Below are positions 43,645-49,881 of a stretch of DNA of 64,000 nucleotides, in pieces. Location of the stretch: contig NZ_JAUSZL010000002.1 in NCBI RefSeq assembly GCF_030817535.1, positions 248,001 to 312,000 on the forward strand, given 5' to 3'. Positions within the stretch are counted from its first letter, which is position 1, and each line of letters begins with the position of its first letter. The stretch is from Streptomyces sp. V3I8. GTDB taxonomy: Bacteria > Actinomycetota > Actinomycetes > Streptomycetales > Streptomycetaceae. The notes below the pieces were generated by a model, which worked only from the letters and a program-made list of their open reading frames with translations, had not been told where the DNA came from and searched no databases. The position numbers were made by a program, and so were the translations under genes.

Positions 43645-43709
43645 CCGGCCCCGCGCGGCGGCCGGCCGGGGAGGGCGAGGTTGCCAGGACGGCACGGCAT
43701 GGGAGATTG

Positions 43710-43723
43710 TTGCCTCAAGGCAA
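43710..43723. promoter_or_regulatory. MarR-type palindrome upstream of the phosphatase operon
   Basis: TTGCCTCAAGGCAA is a perfect palindrome with a 2-bp centre, 52 bases before the phosphatase start. The size and symmetry suit a MarR dimer; the fourth gene of this operon encodes a MarR protein, so autoregulation is likely. Confidence 0.55.
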
Positions 43724-43774
43724 TGTTTCTTCGAGTGGATGAGGTGAGGGATTCGCCCAGCGGGTCCTCAATTT

Positions 43775-45430
43775 TTGGTCTCCACCACACAGCAAACCGG
43801 CGTTGACACAGAACGCGGCTCCTTCTGGGGCGACGCTCCCTACCCCGTCCTGGTCGCCGACGCGCAGGGCGTGGTCGTGCTGCGCAACGGCCCGGCCGAG
43901 GTACTCCTGCCCGCTGCCGGCCCGGGTACCCGCTTCTCGGACGTGGTTCCGGCCTGGCTGTCGGCAGCCCACGATGCGGCGCGGGCCACGGGCCCGCGGG
44001 CGGTCGGCGAGGTGGACGCACCGCTGTCGGGCGTGATCGCCGACCGCAGTTTCGAGGCGCACCCCAGCACGCGGGACGACGGAACGGTCGCCTGGTGGCT
44101 GATCGACGACACCGATCACGTGCTGGCGCGCGAGGCACTGCAGACGGAGCTGAGGCGGACCGCGTTCCTGACCGAGGCCTCCAGCGCGCTGCTCTCCTCC
44201 CTCAACCTGGAACGCTGTATGGACGTGACCGCACACCTGGCCGCGGAGCACCTCGCCGACGCGGCACTGGTGATCGCGCCGACGCACGGGCGCCGGCTCC
44301 CGGTGGTGACCTGCCTGCGCGGCGGCAGCCCTTCCCTGTCCCACGAGTCGGTGGACCCCAACGACGTGCCCGGTCTCGGCGAGGCGCTGCGCGGGTTCCC
44401 GCCGGTGCCCTCACGGTGGATCGATCCCTCCGCCGCGCCGGACTGGATGGTGCCCGAGGGTTTCGGCACGGTCGGCTCGATAGTGATCACCCCGCTGCCC
44501 GGCCACGGCGTCCCCGCCGGAGCCCTCGTCCTGCTGCGGCGCTCGGGCGGCGCGGTGTTCACCGACAGCGAGGAGGTGTTCGCCCGGCTGTTCGCCGCGC
44601 GGGCCGGGGCCGCGATGTCGGCCGCCCGCCTGTACGCCGAGCAGACCTCGATCACCGACGTGCTCATGCGGGAACTGCTGCCCCCCTCGCTGCACCAGAT
44701 CTCGGGGGTGGACTACGCCGGCGGCTACCGGCCGTCCGCGGACCACGAACGGATCGGCGGCGACTTCTACGACGTGCATCCCGCCGCCGTGGACGGTGAG
44801 GCGTCCCTGGTCACCCTGGGAGACGTCTGCGGCAAGGGGCTGGAAGCCGCCGTACTGACCGGGAAGATCCGCAACACCCTGCACGCCCTGCTGCCGCTGG
44901 CCGACGACCACCAGCGGATGATCACCCTGCTGAACACCGCGCTGCTCAACTCCCACCACACCCGGTTCGCGACCCTGGTCCTCGCCTCCGCCGTACGGGC
45001 GGGCAGCGAGGTGAGCCTGCGTCTGACCAGCGCCGGCCATCCGACCCCGCTGATCGTCCGCGCGAGCGGCGCCGTGGAGGAGGCCGAGACACGCGGCACC
45101 CTGGTCGGGGCCATGCCGAACGCCCCCGCCCGCACGGCCGCCCTCACGCTCGCGCCCGGAGAGTCCTGCGTGCTCTACACGGACGGGATCACGGAGGCCG
45201 AGGGCGGGCCGATGGGCGGCGTCCAGTTCGGTGAGGCACGCCTCAAGCGCGTTCTGGCGGAGTGCGCGGGCATGCCGTCCGAGAGCATCGTGGAACGTGT
45301 CCAGATGCTCGCCTCGCAGTGGATCGGTTCGGGACGCCACGACGACATGGCCGTGGTCGTGATCTCCGCGCCCCGCACCCACCACCTCAGCGCGGTGAAC
45401 GGCCACACTAGGGGCAGGTTCACGGCATGA
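43775..45430 (+). CDS. PAS-GAF-PP2C serine phosphatase (SpoIIE/RsbU type)
   Basis: A 551-residue signalling phosphatase. A PAS-like region is at about 20-115 (YPVLVADAQGVVVLRNGPAE), a GAF domain at about 130-290 (TEASSALLSSLNLERCMDVT), and a PP2C/SpoIIE domain at about 305-535. Metal-binding aspartates are in RIGGDFYDVHP, LVTLGDVCGKGLEAAVLTG, VLYTDGITEAEGG and SGRHDDMAVVV. It would dephosphorylate a STAS protein to start a partner switch. TTG at 43775 is the first usable start after an in-frame stop; no good ribosome site precedes it. Its stop overlaps the B12-domain gene (ATGA). Confidence 0.85.
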   Translation: MVSTTQQTGVDTERGSFWGDAPYPVLVADAQGVVVLRNGPAEVLLPAAGPGTRFSDVVPAWLSAAHDAARATGPRAVGEVDAPLSGVIADRSFEAHPSTRDDGTVAWWLIDDTDHVLAREALQTELRRTAFLTEASSALLSSLNLERCMDVTAHLAAEHLADAALVIAPTHGRRLPVVTCLRGGSPSLSHESVDPNDVPGLGEALRGFPPVPSRWIDPSAAPDWMVPEGFGTVGSIVITPLPGHGVPAGALVLLRRSGGAVFTDSEEVFARLFAARAGAAMSAARLYAEQTSITDVLMRELLPPSLHQISGVDYAGGYRPSADHERIGGDFYDVHPAAVDGEASLVTLGDVCGKGLEAAVLTGKIRNTLHALLPLADDHQRMITLLNTALLNSHHTRFATLVLASAVRAGSEVSLRLTSAGHPTPLIVRASGAVEEAETRGTLVGAMPNAPARTAALTLAPGESCVLYTDGITEAEGGPMGGVQFGEARLKRVLAECAGMPSESIVERVQMLASQWIGSGRHDDMAVVVISAPRTHHLSAVNGHTRGRFTA

Positions 45431-46551
45431 GCATGCGCACTCCGCACCGTGCCGCCGTCGGGGACACCGTCCGGCACCTGGCCGACGAGCTGTGGGACGC
45501 CGTCTCCACGGCCGACGAGTACACCGCCACCGAGGTGGTCCTCGGCGCGTTGGAGCGCGGCGTCGACCCGGAGACCGTGCTGCTGGACGTGATCGCCCGG
45601 GTACAGCGCAAGGTCGGCGAGGAGTGGGCCGCCAACCGTCTCAGCGTGGCCCGGGAACACGCCGCGACCGCCATCAACGAACGGGCCGTCGCCGCGCTCT
45701 CCCTGCACCCCGCCACCCGTACCGCCCCCACCCGGGGCAGGATCACGGTGGCGTGCGTCGACGGCGAATGGCACGCGCTGCCCGCCCGGCTGCTCGCCGA
45801 GGTGCTGACCCTGCGCGGCTGGCAGGTGGACTACCTCGGCGCCCAGGTGCCCGCTCCGCACCTCATCGCCCATCTGCACCGCACCAACTCCGACGCGGTC
45901 GCCCTCTCCAGTTCGATCGCGACCCGGCTGCCCGCCGCGCACGCCGCGATCACCGCCTGCCAGGCCGTCGGCGTCCCCGTGCTCGTCGGGGGTGCCGCCT
46001 TCGGCCCCGACGGCCGCTACGCCTTCCTGCTGGACGCCGACGCCTGGGCACCCGACGCCCGCGCCGCCGCCGACCGTCTCGCCGCGGGCCCGCTGCCCCG
46101 CCCGCGCCGCGACCACCAGCAGCTGGACGACCTGCCGCACCTGGTCGATCAGGAGTACACCCTGATCACCCGCAACAGCGCCGCGCTGGTGCGTACCGTC
46201 TTCGCCGCCCTCGAAGCGGCGTTCCCCGCGATGCTCACCTACAGCGAACTGCAGCGCGAGCACACGGCGGAGGACCTCGCCCACATCGTGGAGTTTCTCG
46301 GCACGGCGCTGTACCTCGGGGACGAGGAACTCTTCGCCTCCTTCCTCACCTGGACCGCGCAGATCCTCACCGCCCGCGGTGTGCCCGCCCGCAGTCTTCC
46401 GCCGACCCTGTCCATCCTGGCCGGCGAGCTCAAGGACTTCCCGCGGGCCCTCCGTATCCTCGAACACGGCACCACCGCACTCACCCGCCCCGGACACGGC
46501 ACCGATCCGTACGCCCCCGTCGACCGCAGCACCGCCGAGAGCCCCTCATGA
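45427..46551 (+). CDS. B12-binding (CarH-type photosensory) protein with an uncharacterised helical C-terminal domain
   Basis: A 374-residue protein. A helical cap (about 14-90) carries the W-x9-EH signature of CarH/LitR photoreceptors: Trp67, Glu77, His78 in EEWAANRLSVAREHAA. The Rossmann-like cobalamin domain (about 103-225) has the lower-ligand His116 in VDGEWHALPARLL, LRGWQVDYLGAQVP, ALSSSIATRLP and VLVGGAAFG. The residue after Trp67 is Ala, where CarH has the light-state upper ligand His. There is no DNA-binding domain; instead about 145 C-terminal residues form a helical module I cannot assign. Start and stop both overlap the neighbours (ATGA), so it acts with the phosphatase and STAS protein, probably as their light or cobalamin sensor. 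Confidence 0.8.
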   Translation: MSMRTPHRAAVGDTVRHLADELWDAVSTADEYTATEVVLGALERGVDPETVLLDVIARVQRKVGEEWAANRLSVAREHAATAINERAVAALSLHPATRTAPTRGRITVACVDGEWHALPARLLAEVLTLRGWQVDYLGAQVPAPHLIAHLHRTNSDAVALSSSIATRLPAAHAAITACQAVGVPVLVGGAAFGPDGRYAFLLDADAWAPDARAAADRLAAGPLPRPRRDHQQLDDLPHLVDQEYTLITRNSAALVRTVFAALEAAFPAMLTYSELQREHTAEDLAHIVEFLGTALYLGDEELFASFLTWTAQILTARGVPARSLPPTLSILAGELKDFPRALRILEHGTTALTRPGHGTDPYAPVDRSTAESPS

Positions 46552-46982
46552 CCACGATGCCCCCCGCCCACCTGCGTCTGACCACGGTCGACACCGAGGA
46601 CACGGTCCGTATCGAGCTCCACGGAGACCTCGACTACGACACGGCCGACAGTTTCCTGGCCGAGGTCACCACCGCCCTCGCCACCCACCCGCGCCTGGAG
46701 CACCTGCACCTGCACTGTGCCGGGCTCGGCACGGTCGACTCCATGGGACTGTCCATCCTGCTGATGGTCCGCCGCCGGACCGGCCAGGCCGGTGTACGTC
46801 TCCACCTGGACGACCGGCCGGCGGCGCTGGACCGGCTCCTGACCATCACGGGCAGCCTGGAGTACCTCACGGGGTCCTCCTCCGACGCCGCGAACTCCGC
46901 CTCCCCGGGGACGGGTGAGCCTGCGGCCGCGAGCGAGGAGACGCGGGCGGCCCGCCCCACCGGACCGGACGGCACCACCTGA
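46548..46982 (+). CDS. STAS-domain anti-sigma factor antagonist
   Basis: A 144-residue protein. The STAS domain covers about 8-105: VRIELHGDLDYDTADSFLAE, HLHLHCAGLGTVDSMGLSIL (Ser in DSMG is the expected phosphorylation site) and DRPAALDRLLTITG. The last 35 residues are Ser/Ala/Pro-rich and non-conserved. Such proteins, when dephosphorylated, bind an RsbW-like kinase and free its target. The phosphatase two genes upstream is the likely activator. Start overlaps the B12-protein stop; its own stop touches a possible MarR start (TGATG). Confidence 0.85.
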   Translation: MTTMPPAHLRLTTVDTEDTVRIELHGDLDYDTADSFLAEVTTALATHPRLEHLHLHCAGLGTVDSMGLSILLMVRRRTGQAGVRLHLDDRPAALDRLLTITGSLEYLTGSSSDAANSASPGTGEPAAASEETRAARPTGPDGTT

Positions 46983-47047
46983 TGCCCCGCTCCTTGCCGA
47001 CCAGCCGATCAGCTACGGGGCACGCCAGTCACACCGACGGGGAGCTC

Positions 47048-47575
47048 ATGCCAGTACCAGACTTCGCCTCACGGGACCTCTCCCACGAGGCCACCCGGTC
47101 CGCCGGGGACATCACCGAACTCCTCGACGTGATGTGGGAGAGTGCCAGGCAGGCCACCGCCGCGGCCACCGCCCCCGCCTCCACCTCGCAACTGCGCCTG
47201 ATGTACCTCGTCGACCGCGCCGACCACGAGGAGGGGGTACGGATGCGGACCGTGTGCAAACAGCTCGGTGCCGCGCCCCCCTCCGTCAGCCGGCTGTGCG
47301 ACCGCCTGCAGGCCATCGGGTTCCTGGAACGCCGGCCGTGCCCGGACAGCGGACGGGAGGTCGTCCTGCGGCTGACGAGTGCGGGACGGACCCATCTGCG
47401 ACGCATCCGCGAGCAGCGCGAGACGATGCTGCACCAGGCCATCGACGCCATGCCGCACGGCGAACGGCACGCACTGGCCGTGGGGCTCGCGGGGCTCCAC
47501 GCCCGGCTCACCGCGACCGGCACCGCCGGGCACGACGCCACGGACGGCGGCCGCGGCACCACCTCCGCCGCCTGA
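47048..47575 (+). CDS. MarR-family transcriptional regulator
   Basis: A 175-residue winged-helix regulator. The helix-turn-helix lies at about 50-110: VRMRTVCKQLGAAPPSVSRL and CDRLQAIGFLERRPCPDSGR, with the wing EVVLRLTSAGRTHLRRIREQ. Start uncertain: ATG at 47048 has GGGGAG close upstream, while ATG at 46982 overlaps the STAS stop as TGATG and adds 22 unconserved residues. Fourth gene of the phosphatase operon. A palindrome (43710-43723) in front of the operon is a good candidate target, giving feedback on the signalling set. Confidence 0.8.
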   Translation: MPVPDFASRDLSHEATRSAGDITELLDVMWESARQATAAATAPASTSQLRLMYLVDRADHEEGVRMRTVCKQLGAAPPSVSRLCDRLQAIGFLERRPCPDSGREVVLRLTSAGRTHLRRIREQRETMLHQAIDAMPHGERHALAVGLAGLHARLTATGTAGHDATDGGRGTTSAA

Positions 47576-47619
47576 GCCGCGGGGCCGTGCGGCACGCCCC
47601 GGCCCCGGCGGCCGTGCGG

Positions 47620-48450
47620 TCAGAGCGCGGGCCAGGACGCCGTCGGCCGCTTCTCGTGGGCGGGTGCTGCGCTCTGCGCGCCGTGGACGTCCTGGTCGTG
47701 GACGGGCTCGTTGCCGATGAGCATGTCGGGGTCGAACATGACGATCACGGCGGCCAGGACCAGGAGGAGGACCGGCCCGCCCACCATGGGGAGCAGGGAG
47801 ACGAGCAGGTCCAGCGACGACTGGCCGAGGACCGCGGCGTCCGCGTCGACGTGGACGCTCATGGCGGCCATGCCGGTGTAGTGCATGCCCGTCACGGCGA
47901 CGCCCATGATGACGCTCGCCGCCGAGGCGGAGGCCAGGGTGTGCAGGGACACGGCCGCCCACAGCGCGGCGGTCGCCGCCGTCACGGCTGTCAGCACCGA
48001 CAGGCCGACGGTCACGGGGTCGAACGTCAGATGTCCGGCGAACTCCATCCCGTACATCCCGATGTAGTGCATCGCCGCGACGCCCGCGCCGGTGACCAGA
48101 CCGGCGACACCCAGGGTGAGCGGCGAGGCGCCGCGGTACCCCACCACGAACACACCGAGGAACACCACGGCGATCGCGACGCCGAGGCTGAGGAACGTGA
48201 GAGCGGGGTCGTAGCTGATGGACGCGCCCCGAGCGGTGAATCCGATCATGGCGATGAAGTGCATCGTCCAGATGCCCGACCCGATGCAGATCGCACCCAG
48301 CGTGAGCCACGGGGCTCTGCGGCCCCGGCTGCCCATGCGTACCGACCGCGTCGTGCAGCGCAGGCCCAGGGCCGAACCGGCGCAGGCCATCAGGAACGCG
48401 ACGACGGGAGTGATCGTTCCGTAGTTGAACTGGCTGACCGTGCTGTTCAC
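47620..48450 (-). CDS. MHYT-domain integral membrane sensor protein
   Basis: A 276-residue protein with seven predicted helices and three MHYT motifs: TMHFIAMIGF (about residue 62), AAMHYIGMYGM (about 125) and TGMHYTGMAAM (about 188). MHYT domains are proposed to bind copper through His and Met and to sense O2, CO or NO. There is no GGDEF, EAL or kinase output; the C-terminal 40 residues are cytoplasmic and variable. ATG at 48450. Convergent with the MarR gene. It may be a stand-alone sensor feeding the neighbouring partner-switch proteins, but nothing in the sequence proves this. Confidence 0.85.
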   Translation of the reverse strand: MNSTVSQFNYGTITPVVAFLMACAGSALGLRCTTRSVRMGSRGRRAPWLTLGAICIGSGIWTMHFIAMIGFTARGASISYDPALTFLSLGVAIAVVFLGVFVVGYRGASPLTLGVAGLVTGAGVAAMHYIGMYGMEFAGHLTFDPVTVGLSVLTAVTAATAALWAAVSLHTLASASAASVIMGVAVTGMHYTGMAAMSVHVDADAAVLGQSSLDLLVSLLPMVGGPVLLLVLAAVIVMFDPDMLIGNEPVHDQDVHGAQSAAPAHEKRPTASWPAL

Positions 48451-48869
48451 CGAACGCCTTTCGGACCGCTGGCCCCGTACGGGGTTCCGCTCGGGGGAAA
48501 CCTTTCTGCGAGGTCGCCGAAGGCGCCCCGGTCACACAGACCTGCGCGGGGGAAAGCGTCGGAAGGTCCCCTGGTCCGCGTATGACCCGGGACGGTCCGA
48601 ACGGACGGACGGGCCGGGTTCACCGGCACCCGCATCCGATGCGCCCCGGAATCCGCTCCGGGACCGTACGGCGCCGGAACGCATGACAGCCGGTCATGCG
48701 GGGATCTCGGGGAGTGAGGGGGGAGGTTCATGGTAGGCAGGCGCTCCCCGCTTGTCACTGCGGGTCCCGTGGCGCAATCAAATCGAGACTTGTGCCGTCA
48801 TATTCCGTCTGCATGCCTTCATGGGCATACTCCGCACATACGGCGCAAAGCGGTGCAGGAGGGGAGGTC
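48451..48869. other. Intergenic region, MHYT gene to RsbW-like gene
   Basis: About 420 bases with no convincing gene in any frame. It should contain the leftward MHYT promoter near 48460-48560; an AT-richer segment at about 48775-48850 lies beyond the end of the RsbW-like gene. Confidence 0.5.
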
Positions 48870-49361
48870 TCACCGCGCTTGCGATCCGGGAGTGCCGTCG
48901 GGCCGGTCGGCCAGGGCGATGCGGGCCGTGATGCGCTTGCCCACGGACTCCTGCCGAATGACGAGTTCCTCGGTCACGGCGGCGACGATCTCCAGGCCGT
49001 GCTGGCCGATCCTGCCCGGGTCGGCGGTCCGGGCCGTGGGGACGGTGGGGTCGCTGTCCCGCACGGTGACGTCCACGGCGTCGGCGGTGATGCGCAGCTC
49101 CATCAGGACGGGACCGGGCGCGTACTTGCGGGCGTTGGTGACCAGCTCGCTGACCACCAGCTGGGTGAGGTCCATCGCACGCTCCGACACCGCCAGTTGG
49201 TGGTCGGTGCGGGCCCGGGCGAGGAAGTCGACCGCGTGGTGCCGGGCCTCGGCGATGCAACCGTGGTCCCCGCCCAGTGCGTAGCCCGCGCGCATCAGGT
49301 ACCCGTCTGAGGCTATACAGCCGTCGTCGCCGGCATGGGATCCCACTGGCCTCGCCCTCAT
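48870..49361 (-). CDS. RsbW-like ATP-binding protein (anti-sigma factor / serine kinase type)
   Basis: A 163-residue GHKL ATPase. N-box LTQLVVSELVTNARKYAPGP (about 85), G1-like VDVTVRDSDPTVP (about 112) and G2-like GQHGLEIVAAVTEE (about 135) are present. The usual DNGxG of G1 is replaced by DSDPT, as in many Streptomyces regulatory ATPases. These bind STAS proteins and sigma factors. ATG at 49361 chosen; ATG at 49295 is an alternative. Divergent from a STAS gene across a 157-bp gap. Confidence 0.8.
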   Translation of the reverse strand: MRARPVGSHAGDDGCIASDGYLMRAGYALGGDHGCIAEARHHAVDFLARARTDHQLAVSERAMDLTQLVVSELVTNARKYAPGPVLMELRITADAVDVTVRDSDPTVPTARTADPGRIGQHGLEIVAAVTEELVIRQESVGKRITARIALADRPDGTPGSQAR

Positions 49362-49518
49362 TCCCCGTTCACGTGCGCACCACTACAGGTCTTGCGTACC
49401 CCCGTGCCACAGGAGGTGTCGTTCGGCACAACCACCCGGGTGTATTCGGCCCGGGCGGTGGGGCAGAATCGTCCGTGCAGGTTCTGACCCGGGGTAAGCC
49501 TAATCAGTCGAGGAGACT
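49362..49518. promoter_or_regulatory. Divergent promoter region, RsbW-like / STAS genes
   Basis: On the + strand GTTC (49421-49424) and GGGTGT (49438-49443) are 13 bases apart, loosely like Streptomyces SigB-group promoters (GTTT, then GGGTAT/C). On the minus strand GGGTAC is present at 49396-49401. Both matches are imperfect. Confidence 0.3.
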
Positions 49519-49881
49519 GTGACCGACATACAGAACGGGAGCCGGCCCGGCCGGCTCTCCATCGAACACTCCGACATCGACAGCGTCCGTGTCGTGACGG
49601 TGCGGGGCGAGATCGATCACGCCGTGAGCGGTGTCCTCGGCCAGGCCCTGCTGGTCGAGGACCACGAACCACCGCGGATCGTGGTGGACCTCAGCGGTGT
49701 GACCTTCATGGACTCCAGCGGCATCAACGCGTTCATCCTGGCCCACCAGGCCGCGAGCGGCGCCCGGGGATGGCTGCGTATAGCCGCCGCACAGGAGCCG
49801 GTCCTGCGGGTGCTGCAGCTGGTCGGCGTCGACGCCCTCATCCCCTGCCACCCGACCGTCGAACAGGCCGTACGCGGCTGA
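49519..49881 (+). CDS. STAS-domain anti-sigma factor antagonist
   Basis: A 120-residue single-domain STAS protein: VRVVTVRGEIDHAVSGVLGQ, VVDLSGVTFMDSSGINAFIL (Ser in DSSG is the phosphorylation site) and LRVLQLVGVDALIPCHPTVE. GTG start with GAGGAG five bases upstream. The divergent RsbW-like gene is the natural binding partner; together they are a minimal partner-switch pair. Confidence 0.87.
   Translation: MTDIQNGSRPGRLSIEHSDIDSVRVVTVRGEIDHAVSGVLGQALLVEDHEPPRIVVDLSGVTFMDSSGINAFILAHQAASGARGWLRIAAAQEPVLRVLQLVGVDALIPCHPTVEQAVRG

Follow-up and report, generated by a model that had tools for sequence, protein, structure and literature searches.

A photocobilin gene kept between PP2C phosphatase and STAS genes: a candidate light-input module for a partner switch in actinomycetes

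What is a B12-photoreceptor-type protein doing between the genes for a phosphatase and a STAS protein? The question is raised by an operon in a 64,000-nucleotide stretch of DNA from Streptomyces sp. V3I8 (contig NZ_JAUSZL010000002.1, positions 248,001 to 312,000), referred to below as the window. An earlier note, made from the sequence alone, saw here a candidate new signalling system in which a B12 photoreceptor of the CarH/LitR type is wired into a partner switch. Our analysis suggests that the operon feeds light into a PP2C/STAS partner switch, a reading to which we give a probability of roughly 0.6, and that its sensor belongs to the photocobilin family. The operon comprises four genes:

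43775-45430, + strand: SpoIIE-type PP2C phosphatase with a GAF-like domain in front (PF07228, 135 bits; GAF just under the Pfam cut-off)
45427-46551, + strand: the B12 protein, a standalone photocobilin with a B12 helix bundle, a B12 Rossmann domain and a C-terminal globin-type biliverdin domain
46548-46982, + strand: STAS protein of the anti-sigma-factor-antagonist type, with a D-S-M-G site (PF13466/PF01740)
46982-47575, + strand: MarR-type regulator (PF12802; likely start 47048)

Genes were called with a simple caller based on guanine-cytosine content, and domains were assigned by a Pfam scan. By these coordinates and domains, all seven genes described in the earlier note are present in its order, with the PP2C, B12, STAS and MarR genes on the + strand. 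The ATGA-type overlaps it described are found in the sequence for PP2C/photocobilin (45427-45430) and photocobilin/STAS (46548-46551); the STAS and MarR frames touch instead, as TGATG, and the caller places the MarR start at 47048, just past GGGGAGCTC.

Judged by its sequence, the B12 protein belongs to the photocobilins, sensors with B12 plus biliverdin, and is not merely CarH-like. Residues 20-353 align with SasPcob (expect value (E) 3e-82 for 8J2X and 3.4e-82 for 8J2W) and residues 29-346 with AbPcob (8J2Y; E 4e-41); CarH (5C8A) aligns to the B12 part alone (residues 45-196). Pfam finds the helix bundle (PF02607, 55.5 bits) and the Rossmann domain (PF02310, 58.1 bits), and the C-terminal globin-type biliverdin domain is covered by the 8J2W alignment, which reaches residue 353, with D283 and W309 kept. 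An AlphaFold2 model built from 17 sequences has a helical C-terminal part (mean predicted local distance difference test score 88.4; predicted template modelling score 0.85). The residues we checked are seven that hold adenosylcobalamin or biliverdin according to the photocobilin paper (PMC10979010), and each of them (W67, E77, H78, H116, H145, D283 and W309) is invariant in 80/80 aligned proteins. They include the light-responsive adenosine pocket W67-x9-E77-H78 and the lower-ligand His116, in agreement with the W-x9-EH signature and lower-ligand histidine that the earlier note had picked out, and the Pfam matches likewise include no DNA-binding domain, as it had claimed. Its class assignment was right as far as a B12-photoreceptor type goes and is narrowed here to a photocobilin, the C-terminal globin-type domain having been overlooked. 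Membership of CarH/LitR itself was rejected: the Pfam scan gave no MerR-type DNA-binding domain, and the NCBIfam CarH model scores 58.6 bits against a cut-off of 400. The window photocobilin should bind both adenosylcobalamin and biliverdin, and a heme oxygenase encoded in the genome (225.5 bits against a cut-off of 23) may be the source of the latter.

How general is this arrangement? Relatives were collected by a scan of one genome per species, which gave 407 matches, of which the best 80 were kept. The 80 called loci are 79 of these plus the window (L075, without a called B12 gene, is out) and, being the best-scoring relatives, they lean towards close ones. Within them a PP2C gene stands directly upstream of the photocobilin (position -1) in 78/80 and a STAS gene directly downstream (+1) in 71/80, with the remaining neighbours scattered; by open frames, a STAS lies close downstream in 76/80. 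The genome of the strain itself (9.32 Mb) has 42 SpoIIE, 38 STAS and 109 HATPase_c_2 matches, and because SpoIIE and STAS matches are so few, yet the neighbours so constant across 80 loci, the gene order is beyond chance. The catalytic and metal-binding motifs of the PP2C (GGDFYD, GDVCGKG, DG and HDD) are nearly invariant in 78 relatives, and the phosphorylatable serine of the STAS D-S-x-G site is kept in 69/71, the window STAS itself scoring 49.6 bits against TIGR00377, just under the cut-off of 53.45. A MarR gene occupies +2 in 25/80 called loci and lies within 1.8 kb downstream in 32/80, and its position after STAS marks a subset of Streptomyces-type loci.

The neighbourhoods were also looked at in two wider, even samples, one of the phylum and one of the genus. 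An even sample of 396 genomes from the phylum contained a photocobilin match at 1e-20 in 29. In the 8 best places besides the window (49-66% identity), PP2C lies upstream in 8/8 and a called STAS is present in 7/8; at the eighth, L117, a DUF72 gene is called at the STAS position, with a weak 58-bit STAS match. Within the genus, 21 of 61 genomes had a match (E <= 1e-30), and the 24 places fetched, which leave out the window and G107, have PP2C upstream in 23 and STAS downstream in 17. The PP2C, photocobilin and STAS genes are a conserved module, kept together in many actinomycetes. The conserved synteny that the earlier note had proposed to look for is thus there, and its coupling of a B12-photoreceptor-type protein to a PP2C/STAS pair is upheld by the neighbourhoods in the called loci and in both samples.

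Several observations concern the module's surroundings and the spread of the sensor. A further gene (cluster 5) lies directly upstream on the same strand, at -2, in 12/80 loci and also in L203, L207, L209, L211 and L113; read from its sequence, it looks like a second SpoIIE-like gene. In two distant photocobilin relatives, L128 (5545-6318) and L130 (7249-8433), a GGDEF gene is directly upstream, which would give a cyclic di-GMP output in two genes and not in one fused protein. Close photocobilin relatives were found on 6 of 72,556 plasmid records (5 Streptomyces, 1 Nonomuraea), so large plasmids are able to carry it from host to host, and in two genus-sample loci (L225 and L226) the photocobilin matches are split over two frames, and these are therefore perhaps decaying copies. 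A quick tree puts SasPcob and L120 outside the window's clade (51 rows; Shimodaira-Hasegawa-like approximate likelihood ratio test support 99), and L003 and L005 are the window's nearest relatives. The strain also has a second B12 protein (L002 853-2040; C2 near 8178635), whose translation reads as a MerR-B12 protein of the LitR type, with a photolyase-like gene beside it on the other strand.

The phosphatase of the module has a feature of its own:

45368-45427, + strand: PP2C C-terminal tail APRTHHLSAVNGHTRGRFTA, after the last catalytic motif

The conserved core of this tail is HLSAVxGHTRGRFTA, and a strict form of the pattern is matched by 72 of 78 called PP2Cs. In the HLSAV codons, variation is almost confined to third positions, a sign of selection at the protein level. 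The arginine four codons from the PP2C end is encoded by AGG in 62/72, and in the window this AGG (45416-45418) is probably the ribosome site of the photocobilin gene. In 39 further SpoIIE proteins from the same genome the tail is lacking (40 were fetched, 39 gave a match and one further match below the cut-off was left out), and the corresponding DNA pattern has two occurrences in the genome, one of them at the module. Among 112 loci with a PP2C, 92 have both tail and STAS, 6 STAS only, 2 the tail only and 12 neither, so that loci lacking the STAS gene usually lack the tail as well (Fisher p 3e-10, not allowing for relatedness). This count leaves L074 out, takes L015 as STAS without tail and does not include L225 and L226; its tail threshold (7 matches) was set after the tails had been seen, and the poor tails of L079, L117 and L216 pass it. 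An earlier hand-labelled count of 86 loci, without L015 (broken PP2C frame) and L074 (PP2C not found), gave both in 77, STAS only in 4, the tail only in 2 and neither in 3; L117 was labelled by hand as having neither and by the automatic rule as having both. A probable role for the tail is that of a docking peptide, which would hold the PP2C to the STAS protein or to a STAS-photocobilin complex.

A kinase is also part of a partner switch, and an RsbW-like short gene lies within four genes in 31/80 loci, window included (a count that omits L042, L072 and the more distant gene at L051), and within about 3 kb in 10/24 genus-sample places; two of the linked RsbW-like kinases are confirmed by Pfam. 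The arrangements differ: in Amycolatopsis and L038 a STAS-kinase pair precedes the module on the same strand, the S. virginiae group has an upstream kinase-STAS pair that is divergent, and in the globisporus group STAS-kinase-STAS lies downstream on the minus strand. On an S. xanthophaeus plasmid, the annotation gives STAS, ATP-binding protein and STAS divergent from PP2C, cobalamin-dependent protein, STAS and MarR. In the window, three genes lie 3' of the operon:

47620-48450, - strand: MHYT membrane protein (Pfam), convergent with the operon
48870-49361, - strand: RsbW-like ATPase
49519-49881, + strand: STAS2, the second STAS gene, divergent from the ATPase

The earlier note had placed these genes after the operon, which is correct, and had left their strands unstated. 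Its inclusion of them in the conserved unit did not hold up: they are shared only by L003-L005, though other kinase and STAS genes are linked to the module elsewhere. As core members MHYT and the window ATPase/STAS2 were rejected, loci L003-L005 being close kin. For the family, the partner-switch reading holds well; the window's own ATPase is only a candidate partner in it.

The region upstream of the PP2C gene is also conserved in part of the family, and in the window it contains the following elements:

43681-43686, + strand: TTGCCA, a -35-like element with a putative promoter role, 29 bases before the palindrome
43710-43723, no strand: palindrome TTGCCTcaAGGCAA, of the form TTGYCN4GRCAA, a probable operator over the transcription start
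43741-43747, + strand: GAGGTGA, Shine-Dalgarno-like sequence of the PP2C gene (columns 3-9 of the leader alignment)
43748-43768, + strand: 9-bp hairpin with a CCA loop between Shine-Dalgarno and start codon (pairing in 46 leaders)

TTGYCN4GRCAA is exact in 45/79 upstream regions, against 0.00076 in single-base shuffles, and the palindrome is the sole copy in the window. TTGYCA stands 28-29 bases ahead of it in 31/45 loci having the exact form, and the two together probably form a promoter whose start site is covered by an operator. The exact palindrome is found in 26/31 upstream regions with a downstream MarR gene and 19/48 without; MarR as its sole owner was rejected, 19 of the 45 exact palindromes being in loci without that gene downstream. 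At the Shine-Dalgarno-like sequence, GAGGTGAGG was found in 48/79 upstream regions; a translated upstream frame was rejected as the cause of the leader conservation, as the GTG frame of this sequence has, by eye, no constant relation to the PP2C frame.

The hairpin directly follows GAGGTGA, and the PP2C start codon, TTG, lies 6 bases past it. It was examined in 46 leaders picked by eye, for standard length, from 56 located (L008 was re-anchored by hand; L021, L038, L048, L051, L066, L067, L070, L073, L113 and L117 were left out). In these, 99.2% of cells are paired, against 34-58% in slid controls, and 20 cells are changed on both sides, a number that 0/500 shuffles reach. As 18 of the 20 double changes fall in a single pair (A-U versus G-C) and the other 2 in one further pair, and pair types are no more numerous than in shuffles, they represent few independent events. 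With a z of 0.18 the 77-base leader is unremarkable in folding energy, so the case for the hairpin is made by its conservation and covariation and not by its stability, and no Rfam model matched it near a gathering score. A model of the hairpin has one strong place in the genome of the strain, at the module (next E 0.47 and 0.80), and matches at 0.01 in 10 of the 61 genus genomes. Four strong matches (E below 1e-9, own included) each lie on the same strand as a photocobilin match and less than 2 kb upstream of it. A fifth (G405, E 0.0017) is about 2.1 kb upstream of a split photocobilin match, and the remaining five, all weak, come from genomes in which no photocobilin was matched. With no hairpin match in 16/21 photocobilin genomes of that sample, the leader hairpin belongs to only part of the module family.

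Based on this analysis we can present a proposal for how the module might work. In the dark, the window photocobilin would be a dimer, and green light, or red light via biliverdin, would break the Co-C bond and yield the monomer; a dark dimer that goes to monomer on light-driven Co-C breakage is reported for SasPcob, and standalone SasPcob had a light-dependent effect on how active an isolated cyclase was (PMC10979010). The change in the photocobilin would set, by direct contact, the dephosphorylation of STAS by the neighbouring PP2C, which its tail would dock onto STAS or the STAS-photocobilin complex. Dephosphorylated STAS could then capture an RsbW-type kinase or anti-sigma factor, such kinases being encoded beside the module in several lineages. 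Expression would be controlled by a regulator acting on the palindrome and, in addition, by the hairpin that joins the ribosome site to the start codon. The full proposal, a green/red-light-gated partner switch of non-photosynthetic actinomycetes in which photocobilin, tailed PP2C and STAS form one complex with light-set phosphatase output and hairpin-tuned synthesis, is a tentative one, to which we would give slightly less than even odds.

Several points weigh against a light-input module for a partner switch. STAS is missing from 7/24 genus-sample places that hold a photocobilin, and in the phylum sample both PP2C and STAS are missing beside the photocobilin in most distant relatives: among 12 distant places with long flanks (<=41% identity), PP2C is upstream in 3 and neither gene adjoins in 9. 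Where PP2C is upstream in these, a divergent STAS is seen in two, at 49 bits (L129) and 22 bits (L122), and among the shorter stretches L109 has a PP2C-like frame downstream of the photocobilin relative. The sensor can therefore work without both. On the Streptomyces sp. SGAir0924 plasmid NZ_CP027299.1 (L135 5983-7062; 60.8% identity), the photocobilin lies just upstream of gas-vesicle genes, with PP2C and STAS not next to it, possibly for light control of another output. When relatedness is taken into account, the association of tail and STAS falls short of significance (8 independent pairs, with about 4 agreements and 0 disagreements; median p 0.125), and 7 of the 12 loci without tail and STAS belong to distant relatives, which perhaps never possessed the tail. 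An ATPase/STAS2 pair of the window type is near the module in only L003 and L005, close kin, of the 80 loci. Finally, no sigma factor was identified, although no scan of the neighbours was aimed at one.

The same relay might serve a photocobilin that reports adenosylcobalamin supply, heme breakdown (biliverdin) or redox in place of light; we hold this to be quite unlikely, since the pockets of W67, E77 and H78 and of D283 and W309, invariant in 80/80, fit joint photochemical use. That the B12 protein is a methyl-transfer corrinoid protein is hardly credible. Some database records do carry the name 'methanogenic corrinoid protein MtbC1' and there are weak NCBIfam corrinoid-protein matches, but the best of these reaches 38.3 of 215.3 bits, so far below the cut-off that the assignment was rejected, while photocobilins match residues 20-353 and the constant neighbours are PP2C and STAS.

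The output could also differ, with the photocobilin sequestering STAS or acting on the MarR protein instead of setting phosphatase activity. In favour of this, STAS adjoins it in 71/80 called loci and a MarR gene follows in 25/80; however, PP2C is the more constant neighbour (78/80; 23/24) and stays where STAS is missing, and MarR is absent from most loci, which makes these targets improbable. Also unlikely is a larger circuit with the MHYT sensor, the window ATPase and STAS2 in the same pathway. Kinase-STAS pairs do recur near the module in other loci, and the window's ATPase and STAS2 are found near it in L003 and L005 and its MHYT gene in L003 and L004, but MHYT and the ATPase are on the opposite strand, in separate transcription units, and the arrangement is not seen in the remaining loci of the 80, L003 and L005 being the window's nearest relatives. 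We prefer a light-set phosphatase acting on STAS.

The synteny, the PP2C tail and the linked kinases lead to a concrete and testable chain from light through phosphatase and STAS to an anti-sigma kinase. With a photocobilin match in 21/61 genomes of the genus, light may feed stress or development control in many soil bacteria that are thought to be indifferent to it. Optogenetics, too, could make use of a trans-acting switch by which green or red light controls protein dephosphorylation. Gene neighbourhoods and fusions were reportedly used to predict light sensing in the work of Schneider et al. in 2022 on photoglobin.

The photocobilin family was published in 2024, with SasPcob (8J2W/8J2X) and AbDPcob (8J2Y); in that paper, a potential interaction of Saccharothrix SasPcob with STAS, SpoIIE and PP2C proteins is drawn from STRING, a role in stress response is considered putative and the function of standalone photocobilins is called less clear (PMC10979010). 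The conserved PP2C-B12-STAS synteny is upheld, but the idea of a new signalling system is not wholly new, given that this interaction had already been suggested. Judged by title, no literature match treats a B12 photoreceptor with a PP2C/STAS module. The portions available of two papers on photocobilins and photoglobins do not mention STAS or SpoIIE (PMC11796333; PMC10151467), the second using the RsbR globin as an outgroup for photoglobins, and a light-related MarR regulator, CrtR, is described in another (PMC6739363). Sensor and relay are each of a known kind; their joining had been suggested before and is not set out in the portions of the literature examined.

The window photocobilin shares domain order, chromophore residues and standalone form with SasPcob and AbDPcob, but SasPcob falls outside its clade in the quick tree, and operon structure, PP2C tail, leader and linked kinases were not found in the available part of the photocobilin paper (PMC10979010). 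With CarH/LitR it has the B12 fold, W-x9-EH and the lower histidine in common, and it differs from them in lacking a DNA-binding domain and having an extra globin-type domain. RsbU/RsbV/RsbW and SpoIIE/SpoIIAA/SpoIIAB are partner switches of PP2C, STAS and kinase; the module resembles them in its side-by-side PP2C and STAS genes and, in several lineages, an RsbW-like kinase nearby, whereas here the gene for a trans-acting B12/bilin sensor stands between phosphatase and antagonist. In the stressosome protein RsbR and in YtvA, a non-heme globin or a photosensor is coupled to STAS in one chain; in the window, by contrast, sensor and STAS are encoded by separate, overlapping genes, together with a PP2C.

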